DNA of 64,000 bases from Gemmatimonadota bacterium (GTDB lineage Bacteria > Gemmatimonadota > Gemmatimonadetes > Gemmatimonadales > Gemmatimonadaceae): NCBI GenBank assembly GCA_023249375.1, contig JAHFCT010000012.1, positions 1 to 64,000 of the forward strand, given 5' to 3'. This document shows positions 2,183 to 61,220 of this stretch, piece by piece (the first letter of the stretch is position 1; each line of letters begins with the position of its first letter). Below the pieces are notes generated by a model. The model did not search any database. It was not told the origin of the DNA and saw only the letters and a program-made list of their open reading frames with translations. The translations under genes and the position numbers were made by a program.

Positions 2183-4453
2183 CTACTTACGCGGCCCGCG
2201 CCCACCACGGCCGCCACGGCCGCGATCGCCACCTTCACGGCGCGGACGCTCGTGGTGCTGCTCGCCGCCGTCGGCGGCCGGCGCTTCCGGCGCGCCTTCC
2301 GTCGTGGCGTAGGCATCACCCTCGGGCGCAGCGGTCGCGGCCGGCGCGGCGCCGGCTTCGCCGGCACCCGGCTTCGGCAGCAACGCCTTCATCGAAAGGC
2401 GCAGGCGGCCGCGCTCGTCGCGCTCCACCAGCTTCACCGTCACGACTTCACCCTTCTTCACCACGTCTTCCGGCTTCTCGACGCGCGTGTGGCGCATCTC
2501 CGAGACGTGCAGCAGCGCTTCGGTGCCCGGCATGATCTCGATGAACGCGCCGAACGCGGTCACGCTCTTCACCGTGCCCTGATACGTCAGGCCAACTTCG
2601 GGCTCGGCGGTGATCGCCGCCACCATCTGGCGCGCGCGCTCCATCGCTTCGCCACCCACGGCCGCGATCGTCACCAGGCCGGTGTCGTCCACCGTCACCT
2701 CGGCGCCCGTCTCGTCCTGGATGCCGCGAATCGTCTTGCCCTTCGGGCCGATGAGATCGCCGATCTTCTCGGGGTTGATGTTCATCGTCACGATGCGCGG
2801 CGCCCACGGCGACAGCTCCGGACGCACCGTCGGCAGCGCCTTGTTCATCTCGCCCAGAATGTGCAAGCGACCCAGTTTGGCCTGCGCCAGCGCCTCGGCC
2901 ATGATCTTGAGGTCGAGTCCCTGGATCTTGATGTCCATCTGGATCGACGTGATGCCGTCCTTCGTGCCGGCTACCTTGAAGTCCATGTCGCCGAGGTGGT
3001 CTTCGGTGCCGAGGATATCGGTGAGGATGGCGTACTTCTTCCCTTCCTTGATGAGCCCCATCGCGACGCCGGCCACCGCGCCCTTGAGCGGGATGCCCGC
3101 GTCAAAGCACGAGAGCGAGCCGCCGCAGACCGTGGCCATCGAGGACGAGCCGTTGCTCTCGAGCACGTCGGAGACGATGCGGATGGTGTACGGGAATTCC
3201 GCGAAGTCGGGAAGCACGCCCTGAATGGCGCGCTCGGCCAGGTTGCCGTGGCCAATCTCGCGGCGGCTCGTGCCGCGCATCGGGCGCACTTCGCCCGTGG
3301 AGAACGGCGGGAAGTTGTAGTGCAGCATGAACGCCTTGGTGGTTTCCTTGGCGTCGTCGATGCTGTCCATGCGTTGCACGTCGTTGGCCGTTCCGAGCGT
3401 CGCCGCCACGAGGGCCTGCGTCTGGCCGCGCGTGAAGAGCGCCGAGCCGTGAGCGCGCGGCAGCACGCTGGCGTCGATGCTGATGGGGCGCACTTCGGTG
3501 GGTTTGCGGCCGTCGACGCGCAGGCCCGTCTCGAGCACCTGCTCGCGGAGCGCGTTGTACTCGAGGTCGCCAAGCACGTTGCCGATGAACGGCACCTGCT
3601 CGGGGGTGAGCGACGCCGTCAGATCCGTCTTCACCGCGTCCTTCACGGCCTCGACGGCCTGAATGCGCGTGTGCTTTTCCTTCTGGTTGATGGCGGCTTC
3701 GATCTTCGACTTGGCGGCCTTGGTCACGATCTTCTGGACGTCCGCCGGCGTCTCGTTCTTGCTCCACTCCATCTTCTCGACCGTGATCTTCGAGAGCAGC
3801 TCTTCTTGCATCGCGATCAGCTCGCGAATGCCGCCCTGTGCGATCTCGAGGCCCTTGATGACGTCATCTTCGCCGATCTCCAGCGCGCCGCCCTCGACCA
3901 TCATGATCGAGTCCTGCGAGCCGGCGACCACGAGATCGAGGTCGGAGAACTCGAGCGCCTGGAACGTCGGGTTCAGCACCCACTTGTTCTCCACGCGGCC
4001 CACGCGCACGCCGGCAATCGGGCCGGCCCACGGGATGCGGCTCGCGCTCAGTGCGAACGACGTGGCGACGAGGCCGAGCACGTCGGCGTCATTCTCCTGG
4101 TCCGCGCTGATGACGTAGATGAAGACCTGAACTTCGTTCTGGAAGCCTTCCGGGAAGAGCGGGCGGATGGAGCGGTCGATGATGCGGCACGAGAGGATTT
4201 CCTCGTCGCGCGGCCGTCCTTCCCGCTTGATGAAGCCGCCCGGGATCTTGCCCGCGGCGTAGGTCTTTTCCTTGTACTCGACGGTCAGCGGGAAGAAGGG
4301 CAGCGTGCTCTTCTTGTCGCTGACAGTGACGGCCGCGAGGACCATCGTGTCGCCGAACTGGACGAGCGCCGATCCGGCGGCCTGCTTGGCCATCCGCCCC
4401 GTCTCGATGACGAGCTTGCGACCGGCAAAGGTCCGCTCAATGCGATGCATCAT
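2183..4453 (-). CDS. pnp: Polyribonucleotide nucleotidyltransferase (PNPase)
   Basis: Phosphorolytic 3'-5' exoribonuclease of the RNA degradosome. At 756 aa it has the full order: RNase PH-like domain 1 (about 10-145), alpha-helical linker, RNase PH-like domain 2 (about 320-540, with [16 protein letters not shown] and the [12 protein letters not shown] stretch), KH domain (about 560-620, [19 protein letters not shown]) and S1 domain (about 630-700). After S1 there is an acidic/alanine-rich linker and a tail rich in Arg-Gly ([12 protein letters not shown] end), longer than in many PNPases and possibly RNA-binding. It lies 75 bp after rpsO, the conserved rpsO-pnp pair known for pnp autocontrol in other bacteria. 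ATG at 4451-4453; a second ATG follows directly. Confidence 0.97.
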
Positions 4454-35031: not shown

Positions 35032-35838
35032 GTGCCCGCGGACGAATCCACGGCGGAGCGATTCTCGCTGACGAAATGGTATCTCGACTGCGCTGACGCG
35101 GACGGCCGCGTCGCCATCGGGTACTGGGCGTCGGTGTGCTGGCGCGGGCTCGCGGTGAACTGGCACAGCGTGGCGGTGCACGAGCCTGGTCTCGCACCGC
35201 GCGTGCATTCGAGCGTACGGCAGGTCGCGGCGCCGGCGCAGTCGGGCAGAGAGATCACGTGGCAGTCGCCCGCCCTGCACTGCGCGTTCGTGGTTGACGC
35301 GTGCACTTCGAGCCCACCGCTCCGCCTGCTGGATGGTCCGGACGGGCACGTGGATTGGCAGTGCGTGGCACCCGCCGCGCACACGATGGTGGTGACCGAT
35401 CACTGTGCGCCGATTCGCGGCGTCGGATACGCGGAGTGCATGGCGATCACGATGCTCCCGTGGAAGCTGCCGATCGACGAACTGCGCTGGGGCCGATGGG
35501 CAGCGGGGGACGCGGCGCACTCGGTGGTGTGGATCGACTGGCAGGGCGCGGCGCCGAATCGATGGGTCCTGGTGAACGGCACGCTTTGCGATGCGTCGAG
35601 CGTGAGCGATGACGAGGTCGCCGTCGACGGCGGCGTGCTCACGCTGGCGCAGCCGCGCACGCTGCACAAGCGATTGCTCGGCGAAATCGTTGCCTCGGTG
35701 CCGCCGCTGCCCGCGCTGCTGCCGCCGTCGATGCTCTCGTTGCGAGAGCACAAGTGGTGCAGCGAGGGGACGTGGCGCGCGGGCAGTGGCACACCCGAGA
35801 CCGGATGGGCCATCCACGAAGTGGTGCGCTTCAGATGA
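35032..35838 (+). CDS. Hypothetical protein with AttH/CrtC-like features
   Basis: 268 aa, soluble, no signal peptide. Two parts: an N-terminal FSLTKWYLDCADADGRVAIGY block and a C-terminal block with GYAECMAITMLPWKLPIDEL followed by RWGRW and WVLVNG. This two-lobed Trp/Gly pattern recalls the AttH/CrtC (hydroxyneurosporene synthase-like) lipocalin-type proteins, which bind lipid or isoprenoid ligands; this is a weak match by eye. GTG start at 35032. Its stop overlaps the next gene by ATGA, so the two are likely coupled in function as well. Confidence 0.6.
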   Translation: MPADESTAERFSLTKWYLDCADADGRVAIGYWASVCWRGLAVNWHSVAVHEPGLAPRVHSSVRQVAAPAQSGREITWQSPALHCAFVVDACTSSPPLRLLDGPDGHVDWQCVAPAAHTMVVTDHCAPIRGVGYAECMAITMLPWKLPIDELRWGRWAAGDAAHSVVWIDWQGAAPNRWVLVNGTLCDASSVSDDEVAVDGGVLTLAQPRTLHKRLLGEIVASVPPLPALLPPSMLSLREHKWCSEGTWRAGSGTPETGWAIHEVVRFR

Positions 35839-37775
35839 CACCGGCCAAGATGCGCCGTCGGGGCGCCGCTGGCCGCATCGCGTACGGTTCGCTGTTCGTT
35901 GTCGCGCTCCCTGCCCTGCTCGCGCTCTGGGCGCGCCAGCTCGATCGGCTGGTCAGCTTGCCAGCGCTGGGCTCGCGGAGCGTCGGCGGTGCGGTCGCAT
36001 TGGTTGGGGCTGCCGCGATGGCCGCGGGTACGCTCGCGTTGTGGACGAGAGGTCGCGGCCTGCCGATGAGCGCGTATCCCCCTGAGCGCCTCGTCACGGA
36101 AGGCATCTATCGATATGTGTCGGACCCGCTGTACGTGGGGGCCGTGTTTGTGTGCGCCGGTGTTTCGCTCTTCGCGCATTCCGCTGCCGGACTGTGGATC
36201 GTGACGCCGGTGCTCGCGCTGTGCATCGCCGCGTGGGTGTTCGGCTTTGAACGCGACCTCACGCGACGGCACTTCGGCGCGCTCGCCGAGCCGCTGTTGC
36301 GGCTGCCGTCGGACATCGAAGATCGGCCAACGGCGTGGCATCGCATCTCGTTCTACGTACTCGTCTTCGCTCCGTGGCTTGTCTGCTTCCAGTCGGTCGA
36401 GTTCCTCGGCGTGCCGGCAGGCGCGCTCACCGCCACGTCGGCGCTCGATGCGCGGATACCCGTGATTCCGTGGACGGAAGCGCTGTATTTCTTCGCCTAT
36501 CCCTTTACGATGCTCGCGCCGCTCGCGGCGACGCGGCAGCGCGATCTTCGACGGTTGGCCGTGCGTGCGCTCTGGGCCACCGGGGTGATCATCACGTTCT
36601 ATCTGCTCGTCCCCGTCGTCGCCGAGGCGAAGCCAGTGGCTGGTGACGGCTTTTGGCAGATGATGCTGCGCTGGGAGCGGTGGGGTGACACACCGGCGAC
36701 GGCGTTTCCGTCGTTCCACGTCGTGTGGGCGTGCCTAGCGGCCGAGTTGTACGCCACGACGTGGCCATCACGCCGCTGGCTGGCGTGGGGCGCGGCGGTG
36801 CTGATCTCGGTGAGTTGCCTCACGACGGGAATGCATGCGATGGCCGATCTGCCGGCGGGCGTGGCGGCCTATGTCTTGGTCGCGCGCGGCCGCTCGGTGT
36901 GGTCGTTCATTCGCCGCCAGGCGGAGCGCATCGCCAACTCGTGGTGGGAGCTGACGCTGGGTCCGGTGCGCCTTCAGAGCCACGCGCTGTACATCGGGCT
37001 TTCGACCGTGCTCACGATGCCGGTGGCCGTCTGGCTGAGTGGACGCGAGCTGCGGTGGTGGGTGTTCGGCGTCTCGGTGGCGGCGGGCGTGGGGGCCGCG
37101 GTGTGGGCGCAGGTGATTGAGGGATCGCCGCAGCTGCTGCGCCCGTTCGGTTACTTCGGCGGCATCTTCACCGTGGTTCTCGCGATACCGGTGGCGGCAT
37201 TCGCGGGCGTCGATGCCTGGCGTTTCTTCGCCGCCTACTGCGTGGCCGTCGCGTTTGGGCAAGGACTCGCGCGCCTGCGCTGCCTCGTGAACGGCTGCTG
37301 TCACGGGCGCCAAGCCCCCGAAGCGATCGGCGTGCGCTACACGCACCCGGCCAACCGCGTCACGCGACTGAGCCGTCTCGGCGGCGTGCCCATTCATCCG
37401 ACGCAGATCTACTCGCTCGGGTGGATGATACTCGTGGGATGCATCCTGCTCCGGTTCTGGATGGTCGAAGCACCGCTGCCTTTCATTGCGGGCTTCTACT
37501 TTCTGCTCAGCGGTCTGGGACGATTTGTCGAGGAGCATTTCCGCGGCGAACCGCAGACGGCGACGTTCGGCGGGCTTCGCCTCTACCAGTGGCTGGCACT
37601 GCTGTTCATCGTCGGCGGCGGCGCCCTCTCGGCAATCCCGGGCGCGAGCGCTCCGGCCCCCACGTGGCCCGGCTGGAGCGCGCTGGGCATCGCGGCGCTC
37701 GCCGCGGTCCTCGGCATCGCGATGTTCGGCGTCGACTTCCCCCGCTCCCAACGGCGGTTCTCGAGGCTATCATAG
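35835..37775 (+). CDS. Three-domain membrane protein: ICMT-like methyltransferase, PAP2-like phosphatase, Lgt-like transferase
   Basis: 646 aa, about 15-18 membrane segments. Residues about 1-150 resemble the isoprenylcysteine/phospholipid methyltransferase family (LVTEGIYRYVSDPLYVGAVF, then FERDLTRRHFG). About 150-360 resemble PAP2/AUR1-type lipid phosphatase: FPSFHVVWA and SCLTTGMHAMADLPAG (the PSxH and HxxxD parts; the Arg of the SR motif is a Cys). About 400-600 resemble prolipoprotein diacylglyceryl transferase: RLRCLVNGCCHGRQAPEAIG, VPIHPTQIYSLGW and LSGLGRFVEEHFRGE. I know of no named family with this order. ATG at 35835 makes ATGA with the gene before; the permease follows after 3 bp. 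Confidence 0.75.
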   Translation: MTPAKMRRRGAAGRIAYGSLFVVALPALLALWARQLDRLVSLPALGSRSVGGAVALVGAAAMAAGTLALWTRGRGLPMSAYPPERLVTEGIYRYVSDPLYVGAVFVCAGVSLFAHSAAGLWIVTPVLALCIAAWVFGFERDLTRRHFGALAEPLLRLPSDIEDRPTAWHRISFYVLVFAPWLVCFQSVEFLGVPAGALTATSALDARIPVIPWTEALYFFAYPFTMLAPLAATRQRDLRRLAVRALWATGVIITFYLLVPVVAEAKPVAGDGFWQMMLRWERWGDTPATAFPSFHVVWACLAAELYATTWPSRRWLAWGAAVLISVSCLTTGMHAMADLPAGVAAYVLVARGRSVWSFIRRQAERIANSWWELTLGPVRLQSHALYIGLSTVLTMPVAVWLSGRELRWWVFGVSVAAGVGAAVWAQVIEGSPQLLRPFGYFGGIFTVVLAIPVAAFAGVDAWRFFAAYCVAVAFGQGLARLRCLVNGCCHGRQAPEAIGVRYTHPANRVTRLSRLGGVPIHPTQIYSLGWMILVGCILLRFWMVEAPLPFIAGFYFLLSGLGRFVEEHFRGEPQTATFGGLRLYQWLALLFIVGGGALSAIPGASAPAPTWPGWSALGIAALAAVLGIAMFGVDFPRSQRRFSRLS

Positions 37776-40130: not shown

Positions 40131-42506
40131 CTACGGCGCCACGAGCGCGCTGCGGCGCGTGCGTACGCCGTCGCTGCATGTGACGACGAGGGTGCTGCCG
40201 GACGAGGCGCCCACGTGCAGCGTGGCGCCGCGTGCGGTGCCGAGCAGCGCACCAGTGCGCGCGTCCTGCACGGCAATGCCTCGCGTCGCCGCGTCGGCGC
40301 ACGATAGCCGCAGGGCGGCCGCGCCATTTTCCCGCGCCGCCAGCGGCGCCACGGCAGCGGACACATTGACGGCCGCGTCGGCGTTCGAGCGCGCCATCAC
40401 CTGCCCTACGCCAGCACCCGTCACGCGAATCATCTGGAGTTCGCGGTCGATGCGATCCGTCAGCGGAATCGTGAACAGGAACGGACGCGCCGTCGAGTGG
40501 TCGAGCCGCGCGGGCTCGAATGCGTACCGGAACAAGAGGTCCCCATTCTCCGCGACGCCCTCGAGCGTGTACGGCCCGGATTCCGGCGAGGATGGCAACG
40601 CGGTGAGCGTCAGCGTGGGCTCAAGCGAGACGACGCCGTCTTCTATGGCGCCGCGCACGGCGAGCACCGGCTGAGCCGCCTGCACCGCCTGCACCGCCTG
40701 CACCGCCTGCACCGCCTGCACCGCCTGCACGGTGCCAGTCTCGTTCGCACGTGCAGACGCCGTGGTGCCGCGGAAGTTCAGCACGGCCTGGTAGGTGTAG
40801 GCGCTGGCCCAGACGGGGAAACAGTAACCCATCACATCGCCGGTGCTCGCCGCCACGGCCGCCGCGCTGGACGACGCGCCCTGCGAACGCTGGTAGACAT
40901 CGTGGCCGATGACTCCGATACTGCCATTTGCACCAGGGAAGCTGGCATCAATCGGCGCCCCCGCGCCGCAGGACGGCGCGTGCTGCCGGCCGAAGTTGTG
41001 CCCGAGTTCGTGCGCCACCAGGTCGCGCGACTGCGTCGGCCGGCCGAACCACCCGACGTTCACGATCGAGGACGTCTTGGTCGCCGCGCCGAACGACGCG
41101 TAGTTGTTCGGGATGTACGCCATTCCGCCGTAGTCGGTGTAGGTGAATCCGCTCGGCGGCGCCACGATGGCCATCCAGTGCGCGCTCACGTTCAACGGAT
41201 CGGCGAGTCGCGCGAGGTCGAGCTCGCTGATGATCTGGCTCCAAAAGGCCGACTGCCCTCCATTCGGCGCCGTGCCGAAGTTCGCGGCCGTGAAGAACGG
41301 CGCGCCAACCGTCACTTGAACGGCGCCCAGTGGATGCACGCTGAGCAGCGTCTGCGTGTAGAGATTGGTGTTCGCCGCCGACACGTTTCCCGTGCTGTTG
41401 GCGTGCGAGGTCAGCACGATCGGCACGAGCCGGAGCTTGAGCGCGTTGGGCGTGACAGCCGCGAGCGCCGCCGGGCCACCGCTCGGATAGCGGTCGTTGG
41501 ACGCGGACGCATCGGCCGCAACGCCGCGGGGATCGCGCACCAGTTCCCACTTGAGTCCCGCGCGAAGCGCCGACGCCGGCACGAAGAACTGCGCGCTTGG
41601 CGCGTCGAAGCCCGGCGCGGTCGCCGGCACACTGGCAATCGCGATGGTATCCGTGCGCACGACGAGGCCGCTTACCGCGTCCGTCAAGCGCAGCAGTAGC
41701 TGCATCGGCGTGCTGACGGTCTGATTCGCCGCGAGAATCACGTTCACGACGGCGCCATTGCCGCCGAGCATCATCGGCAGCGAGCCCGTGGCGTCCTGCA
41801 CCGCCTGCGTCCACTGCGCCGACTGGATGGAGACGTCAACCGACGACAGCACAATCACGGTGATGGCCGCCGTGCCGCTCTTCCCTTCGCACGTGGCGGT
41901 GACCGTCGCAACGCCGGCCGCGGCGGCCGTGATCATCCCGTTGCCGCTGACCGTCACCTTGGCAGCATCGGACGTTGTCCACGTGATCACGCGCCCCGAC
42001 AACGCCGTGCCTGCGGCATCATGCGCGGTCGCCACGAGCTGCTGCGTGGTGCCAATTGCCATCGACGCAGTACCAGGCGTCACGGTGACCGACGCCACGG
42101 GCACCTGGCTGACGGTGACGAGTGCCTGCCCGACCTTGCCGGCCGACGTCGCGAGAATCGTCGATTGTCCCGCGGCGAGACCCGTGACGGTGCCCGAGGG
42201 GTTGATCGAGACGATGAACGACGAGCCCACCGACCAGGCAACGGTACTGAGGCTGTAGGGCGCGCCGTTCTGGTCGACTCCCGCCGCGCTCGCGGTGGTG
42301 GTGGCGCCAACGTTGATAGCCGAGGCCGCCAGCGTGACGCTGATTGACGTCAGTACCGGCGTGGGTTTTGGCGGCGTCGCGGTCGGACTGTCTCCCTTGC
42401 CGCAGGATACGAGCAGCATCACGCACGCGGCACGCAGCACGGCGCGCCGCCGGCGACGGAGCCCGACGCGAGCAACGCAAGAGCGGTCGAGTCGCGACGG
42501 GATCAT
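40131..42506 (-). CDS. Secreted metzincin-type metalloprotease lipoprotein with Big-2 domains
   Basis: 791 aa. Signal with lipobox VMLLVSCGKG (Cys about 35), two Big-2 immunoglobulin-like domains (about 48-205, e.g. VAWSVGSSFIVSINPSGTVT), then a protease domain with the zinc motif HELGHNFGRQHAP and a Met-turn VMGYCF, as in M11/M12B-type metzincins. After it a run of six VQA triplets, then a beta-rich C-terminal part ending near a Cys-containing strand. Likely anchored in the outer membrane or secreted. ATG at 42504-42506; the open frame upstream runs through a tRNA relic and is not used. Confidence 0.8.
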   Translation of the reverse strand: MIPSRLDRSCVARVGLRRRRRAVLRAACVMLLVSCGKGDSPTATPPKPTPVLTSISVTLAASAINVGATTTASAAGVDQNGAPYSLSTVAWSVGSSFIVSINPSGTVTGLAAGQSTILATSAGKVGQALVTVSQVPVASVTVTPGTASMAIGTTQQLVATAHDAAGTALSGRVITWTTSDAAKVTVSGNGMITAAAAGVATVTATCEGKSGTAAITVIVLSSVDVSIQSAQWTQAVQDATGSLPMMLGGNGAVVNVILAANQTVSTPMQLLLRLTDAVSGLVVRTDTIAIASVPATAPGFDAPSAQFFVPASALRAGLKWELVRDPRGVAADASASNDRYPSGGPAALAAVTPNALKLRLVPIVLTSHANSTGNVSAANTNLYTQTLLSVHPLGAVQVTVGAPFFTAANFGTAPNGGQSAFWSQIISELDLARLADPLNVSAHWMAIVAPPSGFTYTDYGGMAYIPNNYASFGAATKTSSIVNVGWFGRPTQSRDLVAHELGHNFGRQHAPSCGAGAPIDASFPGANGSIGVIGHDVYQRSQGASSSAAAVAASTGDVMGYCFPVWASAYTYQAVLNFRGTTASARANETGTVQAVQAVQAVQAVQAVQAAQPVLAVRGAIEDGVVSLEPTLTLTALPSSPESGPYTLEGVAENGDLLFRYAFEPARLDHSTARPFLFTIPLTDRIDRELQMIRVTGAGVGQVMARSNADAAVNVSAAVAPLAARENGAAALRLSCADAATRGIAVQDARTGALLGTARGATLHVGASSGSTLVVTCSDGVRTRRSALVAP
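40677..40730. repeat. 9-bp tandem repeat inside the metzincin gene
   Basis: Six exact copies of CCGCCTGCA (period 9), read on the minus strand as six VQA triplets. It is in frame, so copy-number changes would alter linker length between the protease and the C-terminal domain without frameshift. Confidence 0.9.
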
Positions 42507-42609
42507 GGCGTGTCGTTCACCGGCTGGGGGGCACGGGCCGCGCGGACTTTCGAGGTTCGCCGGCGATCCGTGGGGCTGATTCGTTCGCTCTCTCGACTGC
42601 GCGCTTCCA

Positions 42610-42693
42610 TGCCGGGGCTGGGGATCGAGCCCAAATGGGATTGCCCCAAAGGGATTCAACTCCCTTTCCCCACTCTGAGAACTCCCCAACGCC
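42610..42693 (-). pseudogene. Decayed tRNA-Leu-like relic
   Basis: 84 bp clearly related to the tRNA-Leu at 54343-54427: 3' acceptor CCCCGGC and A73, a T-arm (with CTCGATC in place of TTCGATT), the long variable arm TTTGGGGCAATCCCA and the anticodon stem AGGGA/TCCCT are kept. The 5' acceptor strand no longer pairs, the D-arm is lost, and the anticodon loop seems one base short (GTTGAA). It is unlikely to be functional. The flanking TTCCATGCCGGGG is also shared with the real gene. Confidence 0.65.
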
Positions 42694-54694: not shown

Positions 54695-54776
54695 GCCATC
54701 TACCATCTGCCGTCCACCATCTGCCAGCTACCATCTGCCATCCACCATCTGCCAGCTACCAGCTACCAGCTGCCCT
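54695..54776. repeat. Degenerate CTACCATCTGCC repeat downstream of galK
   Basis: About six to seven imperfect copies of a 10-14-bp unit (CTACCATCTGCC, CGTCCACCATCTGCC, CAGCTACCATCTGCC). It begins at the galK stop and ends at the tRNA-Gly promoter. The unit CTACCATCT is the complement of the GGTAGATGG units at 61149-61182. Confidence 0.75.
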
Positions 54777-61143: not shown

Positions 61144-61220
61144 ACAGATGGTAGAGGGTAGAGGGTAGATGGTAGATGGTAGTCAGCAGACGGCAGACGG
61201 CAGACGGCAGACGGCAGACG
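61144..61220. repeat. GGTAGA and CAGACGG tandem repeats at the recN start
   Basis: On the plus strand, about five GGTAGA(T/G)G units (61149-61182) are followed by five CAGACGG units with exact 7-bp period (61187-61220). It directly abuts the recN start codon. The two words recur at 54695-54776 and 12281-12362. Confidence 0.85.

Follow-up and report, generated by a model that had tools for sequence, protein, structure and literature searches.

A candidate two-gene lipid-tailoring cassette composed of a three-domain membrane fusion and a double-lipocalin partner

Lgt-fold enzymes are known for modifying lipoproteins from the periplasmic face of the membrane. Lgt itself, phosphatidylglycerol:prolipoprotein diacylglyceryl transferase, moves a diacylglyceryl unit from phosphatidylglycerol to the cysteine of the lipobox, and the Escherichia coli enzyme requires residues Y26, H103, R143, N146, G154 and R239. 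The PEMT, PAP2 and Lgt families can all act on ordinary phospholipids, and members of the AttH superfamily act on prenyl, polyene or steroid chains; in the spheroidene branch, hydration by CrtC is followed by methylation. For this superfamily member, an H-x-W...Y-x-D motif is needed, with His239, Trp241, Tyr266 and Asp268 as the catalytic residues (PMC4717167). The active site of E. coli Lgt opens to the periplasm, and the protein follows the positive-inside rule (PMC4728403); accepted Lgts include some with variation at H103, N146 and E151, among them H103-to-Y and N146-to-C (PMC13251419).

The locus described here lies in a window of 64,000 nucleotides (the whole stretch of DNA that was analysed) from a Gemmatimonadota bacterium whose genome assembly comprises 3.8 Mb in 120 contigs, and it consists of a gene for a three-domain membrane fusion and an upstream partner gene (Table 1). 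Each domain of the fusion belongs to a known superfamily. The fusion gene is a real reading frame, open throughout, and a preliminary description had recognized in it, from motifs, three lipid-related families of membrane enzymes, all of which are significant in profile searches and exceed their Pfam cut-offs: PF04191 (PEMT; 42.4 bits vs a cut-off of 25), PAP2_3 (45.4 bits vs 27) and PF01790 (LGT, residues 439-598; E 1e-20, 74.6 bits vs 24.9). The motifs quoted at that time were found at residues 292-295 (PSFH), 334 and 338 (H and D), 485-492 (VNGCCHGR), 521-526 (HPTQIY) and 562-571 (GRFVEEHFRG), although the N-terminal part, then described as ICMT-like, is better termed PEMT-like, given that PF04140 (ICMT) scores 19.4 bits, under its cut-off of 24. 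Structure prediction yielded a model (pLDDT 92.5, pTM 0.92) in which the C-terminal part matches E. coli Lgt and the middle part matches IPC synthase, Aur1 and LpxE (Z 12-13), likewise in agreement with the earlier assignments; residues 1-150 fall outside the VIA structure list, and the methyltransferase fold is therefore taken from Pfam. Sequence searches of the PDB returned only a chance match for the single protein (phmmer) and only Aur1, at E 0.7, for the family profile. Among 56 full-length family proteins, the window's included, LGT and PEMT matched in all 56 and PAP2_3 in 54, and the fusion is therefore no chance or assembly join.

Table 1. Coordinates of the features of the locus, numbered from the first letter of the window
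Feature	Position	Strand	Basis or remark
Partner gene, 268 aa, GTG start; AttH/CrtC/pericyclase-type double lipocalin	35032..35838	+	AlphaFold, Foldseek/VIA
ATGA overlap of partner stop and fusion start	35835..35838	+	sequence; putative translational coupling
Three-domain membrane protein (PEMT-like, PAP2_3, Lgt-like), 646 aa	35835..37775	+	Pfam, homologues, structure model
PEMT-like methyltransferase domain, residues 84-148	36084..36278	+	Pfam E 1e-10
PAP2_3 domain, residues 216-349	36480..36881	+	Pfam E 1e-11 and structure match
PAP2 motif PSFH, residues 292-295	36708..36719	+	H295 in 77/79
PAP2 motif H334-x3-D338	36834..36848	+	H334 and D338 each in 78/79
Lgt-like domain, residues 357-604, predicted inverted	36903..37646	+	Z 15.3 to 5azb in comparison of the structure model; topology and charge statistics
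Lgt signature R480-L-R482-C483-x4-C488-C489-H490-G491-R	37272..37310	+	residue alignment
R563-F-V-E566-E567-x2-R570-G-E572, aligning with E. coli R239/E243	37521..37550	+	
Extra C-terminal TM helix (613-632), then positive tail FPRSQRRFSRLS	37671..37730	+	not in E. coli Lgt

Elsewhere in the window, a 9-base tandem repeat (40664-40730, 7.4 copies) encodes a VQA repeat in an ORF (40131-42689, - strand) resembling a secreted metalloprotease-like protein, a second tandem repeat with 7-, 14- and 28-base units (54695-54771) adjoins tRNA-Leu and tRNA-Gly genes, and two adjoining 7-base arrays (AGATGGT x5 and GCAGACG x5; 61146-61220) are intergenic.

Conservation of the active sites was counted in 79 family sequences. 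In the methyltransferase motif D97-P98-x-Y100-x-G102 with downstream E139, residues P98, Y100 and E139 are present in all 79 and G102 in 78, and position 97, an aspartate in the window's protein, is a histidine in 72. The PAP2 motifs are nearly as constant (Table 1), and within the Lgt-like domain R480, R482, C483, C488, C489, H490 and G491 as well as R563, E566, E567, R570 and E572 are invariant (79/79). The linker residues N368, W370 and H383 are nearly invariant. Because the active-site residues are conserved in this manner, all three sites look functional, the Lgt site in an altered form.

The fusion is rarely found without its partner. Among fusion loci with at least 700 bases of upstream sequence, a partner homologue lies upstream in 74 of 75, almost always directly before the fusion; at the sole exception (L056), the upstream position is occupied by a 188-aa ORF that has a similar GY...LP...LxWGR stretch and matches no family. 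Of 71 homologous pairs, 55 have overlapping genes by a nearest-start rule, and the ATGA overlap in the window, as judged from the sequence, probably couples their translation. The full fusion occurs in 4 of the 90 genomes of one acidobacterial order and the partner in exactly the same four, the two genes co-occur in the same close relatives, and their pairwise distances correlate over all pairs of 70 loci (r 0.87), a correlation that shared genome ancestry could partly explain. Apparent in-frame partner-fusion proteins at three loci (L091, L106 and L114) were rejected, the reading frames being different, and one of these loci, from a Myxococcales bin, carries two partner copies upstream of one fusion (L106:1124-1909 and 3110-3889). 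Clustering of the gene neighbourhoods for further partners returned a single specific recurrent gene: in six Acidobacteriota loci, the pair is directly preceded by a gene for a UbiA prenyltransferase (the two tested have Pfam E values of 5e-23 and 4e-21). Its position would count for a tailoring cassette and its confinement to one clade against; with no other recurrent specific neighbour, the pair is probably self-sufficient or uses general lipids. No description of the pair was found among open-licence papers.

The simplest reading of the fusion together with its partner is a single lipid-tailoring unit, and we assign a probability of about one half to the proposal, with its steps taken as a whole, that the two genes form a cassette acting on a non-protein lipid. 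The partner would bind a hydrophobic substrate in the cytoplasm, probably prepare it through a hydration, elimination or cyclisation reaction of its prenyl or polyene chain, and pass it to the fusion in the inner membrane. At the cytoplasmic face, the PEMT-like domain would methylate the substrate with SAM, and the Lgt-like domain, if inverted as predicted below, would join to it a diacylglyceryl or similar unit drawn from an inner-leaflet phospholipid; once the lipid had reached the outer leaflet, the PAP2 domain would remove or transfer a phosphate head group at its periplasmic site. The product would be an unusual lipid. A point against the proposal is that active sites facing both sides of the membrane call for a putative flipping step. 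The computations supply three domains with conserved residues, a near-obligate gene pair, and a charge pattern that, with the helix count, implies inversion; from these we infer the activity of all three domains, the order and chemistry of the steps, and the non-protein nature of the substrate.

The AlphaFold model of the partner (pLDDT 95.6) confirms, by fold, the AttH/CrtC-like nature of the coupled gene that the preliminary description had named. The fold of this superfamily extends along the whole partner with Z 16-22 (Foldseek/VIA; unrelated rows score about 8), the pericyclases Fsa2, CghA and Phm7 matching at 21-22 (up to 21.9), AttH (2ich) at 18.6, 25-phosphosteroid lyase at 18.4 and kievitone hydratase at 16.6. 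At the level of sequence, Pfam gave no convincing family match for 50 partner members, and a profile of partner members had no match among PDB sequences. No signal peptide is apparent, and the invariant residues include W109, Y133, E135, W153, W167, W170 and E263. At the places of the CrtC H-x-W and Y-x-D motifs, as located by motif position, the partner has W109-x-C111 and Y133-x-E135. Hydratase chemistry is therefore not assured, and the protein could be a carrier only; we infer a soluble enzyme or carrier of a hydrophobic, possibly prenyl-type molecule.

The same fold, the UbiA genes of the six loci, and the presence of the phytoene/squalene synthase family (PF00494) in 25 of 33 cassette genomes would all suit a cassette that tailors carotenoids or other C30/C40 isoprenoids through CrtC-like hydration, methylation and glycerolipid linkage. 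We nonetheless consider this reading distinctly unlikely: the partner, judged by motif position, appears to lack the CrtC H-x-W, no carotenoid gene recurs in the neighbourhoods, and PF00494 was not found in the other eight genomes, several of which are incomplete bins and one of which is the isolate Chitinophaga hostae, so that the cassette does not depend on the synthesis of carotenoids or squalene. The genomes of Neisseria wadsworthii and Neisseria sp. 83E34 (loci L080 and L085) each carry a pair of genes that strongly match the squalene/phytoene synthase family, which is unexpected for Neisseria.

Another alternative follows from the PAP2 part, whose top structural matches are IPC synthase, Aur1 and SMSr (Z 12-13), in keeping with its PAP2_3 family. 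On this account, the fusion would act as a sphingolipid-type head-group transferase, in the manner of inositol phosphorylceramide synthase or sphingomyelin synthase, with the partner ferrying ceramide-like lipids. Transfer of a phospho-head group to ceramide may be suggested by this structural resemblance, but LpxE is tied (12.1) and plain phosphatases follow (10-11), and no serine palmitoyltransferase was noticed in the neighbourhood of the pair; we therefore judge the sphingolipid account quite improbable.

The Lgt-like domain calls for closer comparison with the lipoprotein enzyme. In the alignment, R480, G491, R563 and E567 of the fusion correspond to R143, G154, R239 and E243 of E. coli Lgt, and in the fusion family H103 is replaced by phenylalanine or tyrosine and both N146 and E151 by cysteine. 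The residue set required in E. coli is thus incompletely kept (R143, G154 and R239 retained, H103 and N146 changed, Y26 not securely aligned). Normal Lgts of the window's phylum have W or Y at position 103 and C at 146, and because these as well as accepted Lgts vary there, the changes at 103, 146 and 151 do not by themselves exclude Lgt function. The NCBIfam lgt equivalog scores of the fusion are far under their cut-offs (TIGR00544, 34.5 vs 118.9 bits; NF000778, 62.6 vs 334 bits).

The predicted orientation of the domain sets it further apart. In the model, the first part spans the membrane with four helices, the PAP2 part with six and the Lgt part with eight; counting from a cytoplasmic SAM site, the PAP2 motifs would be periplasmic, as is usual, and the Lgt part would begin in the cytoplasm. 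The charges (K+R) of the loops in 56 fusions provide an independent check on this count. Loops of the Lgt part predicted to lie inside carry on average 1.4 (loop 2-3), 6.6 (head), 2.4 (loop 6-7) and 3.0 (tail) such residues, and those predicted to lie outside carry 0.36, 0.07, 0.11 and 0.30. When K+R is added up over the three loops that a normal Lgt keeps in the cytoplasm, identified by joint alignment, the 56 fusions reach 0-4, compared with 6-11 for 13 normal Lgts and 5-11 for 7 Lgt-like paralogues, the latter stand-alone or otherwise fused and several of them also with the GCC motif; the head loop, conversely, averages 6.6 in the fusions vs 3.5 and 2.1 in these two groups. As the ranges do not overlap, the predicted inversion is peculiar to the fusion within the set compared. 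Taken together, the helix count and the loop charges predict that the Lgt-like active site faces the cytoplasm, opposite to the periplasm-facing site of Lgt, and that the PAP2 site faces the periplasm. Two proteins of about 620 aa from one Bacteroidota genome (L141 and L142, G077) combine an Lgt-like GCCYG domain with a long uncharacterised C-terminal part, and L141, the one in which charges were counted, has the normal Lgt pattern.

These results bear on the possibility that the fusion is an accessory lipoprotein modifier, in which the Lgt-like domain attaches lipid to certain exported proteins and the other domains process the lipid. The clear homology to Lgt, including the equivalents of R143, R239, E243 and G154, the shared fold, and the H103-to-Y and N146-to-C changes of some accepted Lgts (PMC13251419) speak for such a role, whereas Lgt works on translocated proteins at the periplasmic side (PMC4728403), 32 of 33 cassette genomes, and also that of the window, contain a separate normal Lgt, and no gene for a secreted protein recurs beside the fusion in the neighbourhood clustering. 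With inversion predicted and a separate Lgt present, lipoprotein modification is very unlikely; thus, of the earlier suggestion that the domains act on lipids or lipid-modified proteins, the lipid part is supported and the protein part is not.

A profile and alignment scan of one genome per species yielded 170 candidate loci, of which the best 80 were kept; these 80 carry the fusion, nearly all at full length and with identical domain order. They represent at least nine phyla: Acidobacteriota, Bacteroidota, Gemmatimonadota, Ignavibacteriota, Zixibacteria, Planctomycetota, Verrucomicrobiota, Myxococcota (Minicystis rosea) and Pseudomonadota (Neisseria wadsworthii, Actibacterium atlanticum). The preliminary description had known of no named protein with this order, and a literature search on the domain combination, on Lgt with PAP2 or ICMT and on an inverted Lgt likewise found nothing relevant among open-licence papers; the order is, however, that of a widespread conserved family and no local oddity. 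A scan of the genome collection with the window's protein alone gave no match, and the family emerged from the alignment-based scan. Close relatives, sharing 54-58% identity, are found within the same genus and order. The distribution is patchy, with real homologues or pieces in about 8 of 60 relatives, and no homologue was found on 72,556 plasmids. In a tree, the Neisseria and Cardiobacteriaceae copies group with a flavobacterial copy, a placement that is consistent with transfer, of which a tree alone is no proof. A stand-alone protein in a Bryobacterales genome (G153, L134:8083-9003) corresponds only to the PAP2 region of the fusion (profile positions 131-363, E 4e-75) and is perhaps the remnant of a decayed fusion. 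In the window's own genus, a degraded fusion (genome G005, L028:8050-9348) is missing residues 1-59 as well as the catalytic core of PAP2 and the last Lgt helices, and the partner gene was not found in that genome. That the three domains are joined for assembly or stability only and act independently on bulk phospholipids, as all three families could and as the otherwise random neighbourhoods might suggest, is very improbable given that order, linker residues and partner are kept over at least nine phyla and that the degraded relative lost PAP2 core and partner together.

A more ambitious version of the tailoring-cassette reading, in our estimate unlikely, is that the pair makes a bacterial lipid of a new class, in which diacylglyceryl is linked as an ether or thioether to a prenyl- or polyene-type molecule, through an undescribed pathway that is widely and sporadically distributed. 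An Lgt-fold enzyme inverted in the membrane would build this lipid on the cytoplasmic side, and a PAP2 site on the opposite face of the same polypeptide would finish it. More generally, a conserved family in which an inverted Lgt fold is joined to a methyltransferase and a phosphatase or phosphotransferase, and paired with a lipocalin-type partner, would mean that evolution has put the Lgt fold to use in other lipid chemistry, and would define a new lipid pathway in at least nine phyla. The system is readily testable, with two genes, one topology prediction and one lipid profile.

Four known systems frame the cassette. With Lgt (PF01790; E. coli 5azb), the fusion shares the fold of residues 357-604, the R143, R239, E243 and G154 equivalents and the HPTQ motif, but it is predicted to be inverted, has F/Y for H103, Cys for N146 and E151 and an invariant C-x4-CCH, carries an extra C-terminal helix and two other attached enzymes, and is not the main Lgt of its genome. 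With the PAP2_3 enzymes (IPC synthase, Aur1, SMSr and LpxE), it shares the six-helix fold, the P-S/A-F-H and H-x3-D motifs and a predicted periplasm-facing site; it differs in having PSFH or PAFH in place of PSGH, in the third motif, whose usual arginine was not seen (T330-T331 region), and in lying between two other domains. The PEMT/ICMT methyltransferases (PF04191, PF04140) have in common with it H/D-P-x-Y-x-G, the downstream Glu and a predicted cytoplasmic SAM site, although the domain here is joined at the N-terminal side of PAP2 and falls under the ICMT model's cut-off. Finally, the partner resembles the superfamily of AttH, CrtC, kievitone hydratase, the fungal Diels-Alderases and 25-phosphosteroid lyase in the double-lipocalin fold along its whole length (Z 16-22); it is distinguished by the lack of a sequence match to PDB chains or Pfam, by W-x-C...Y-x-E (by motif position) in place of the CrtC H-x-W...Y-x-D, and by a gene order that ties it to a membrane fusion.
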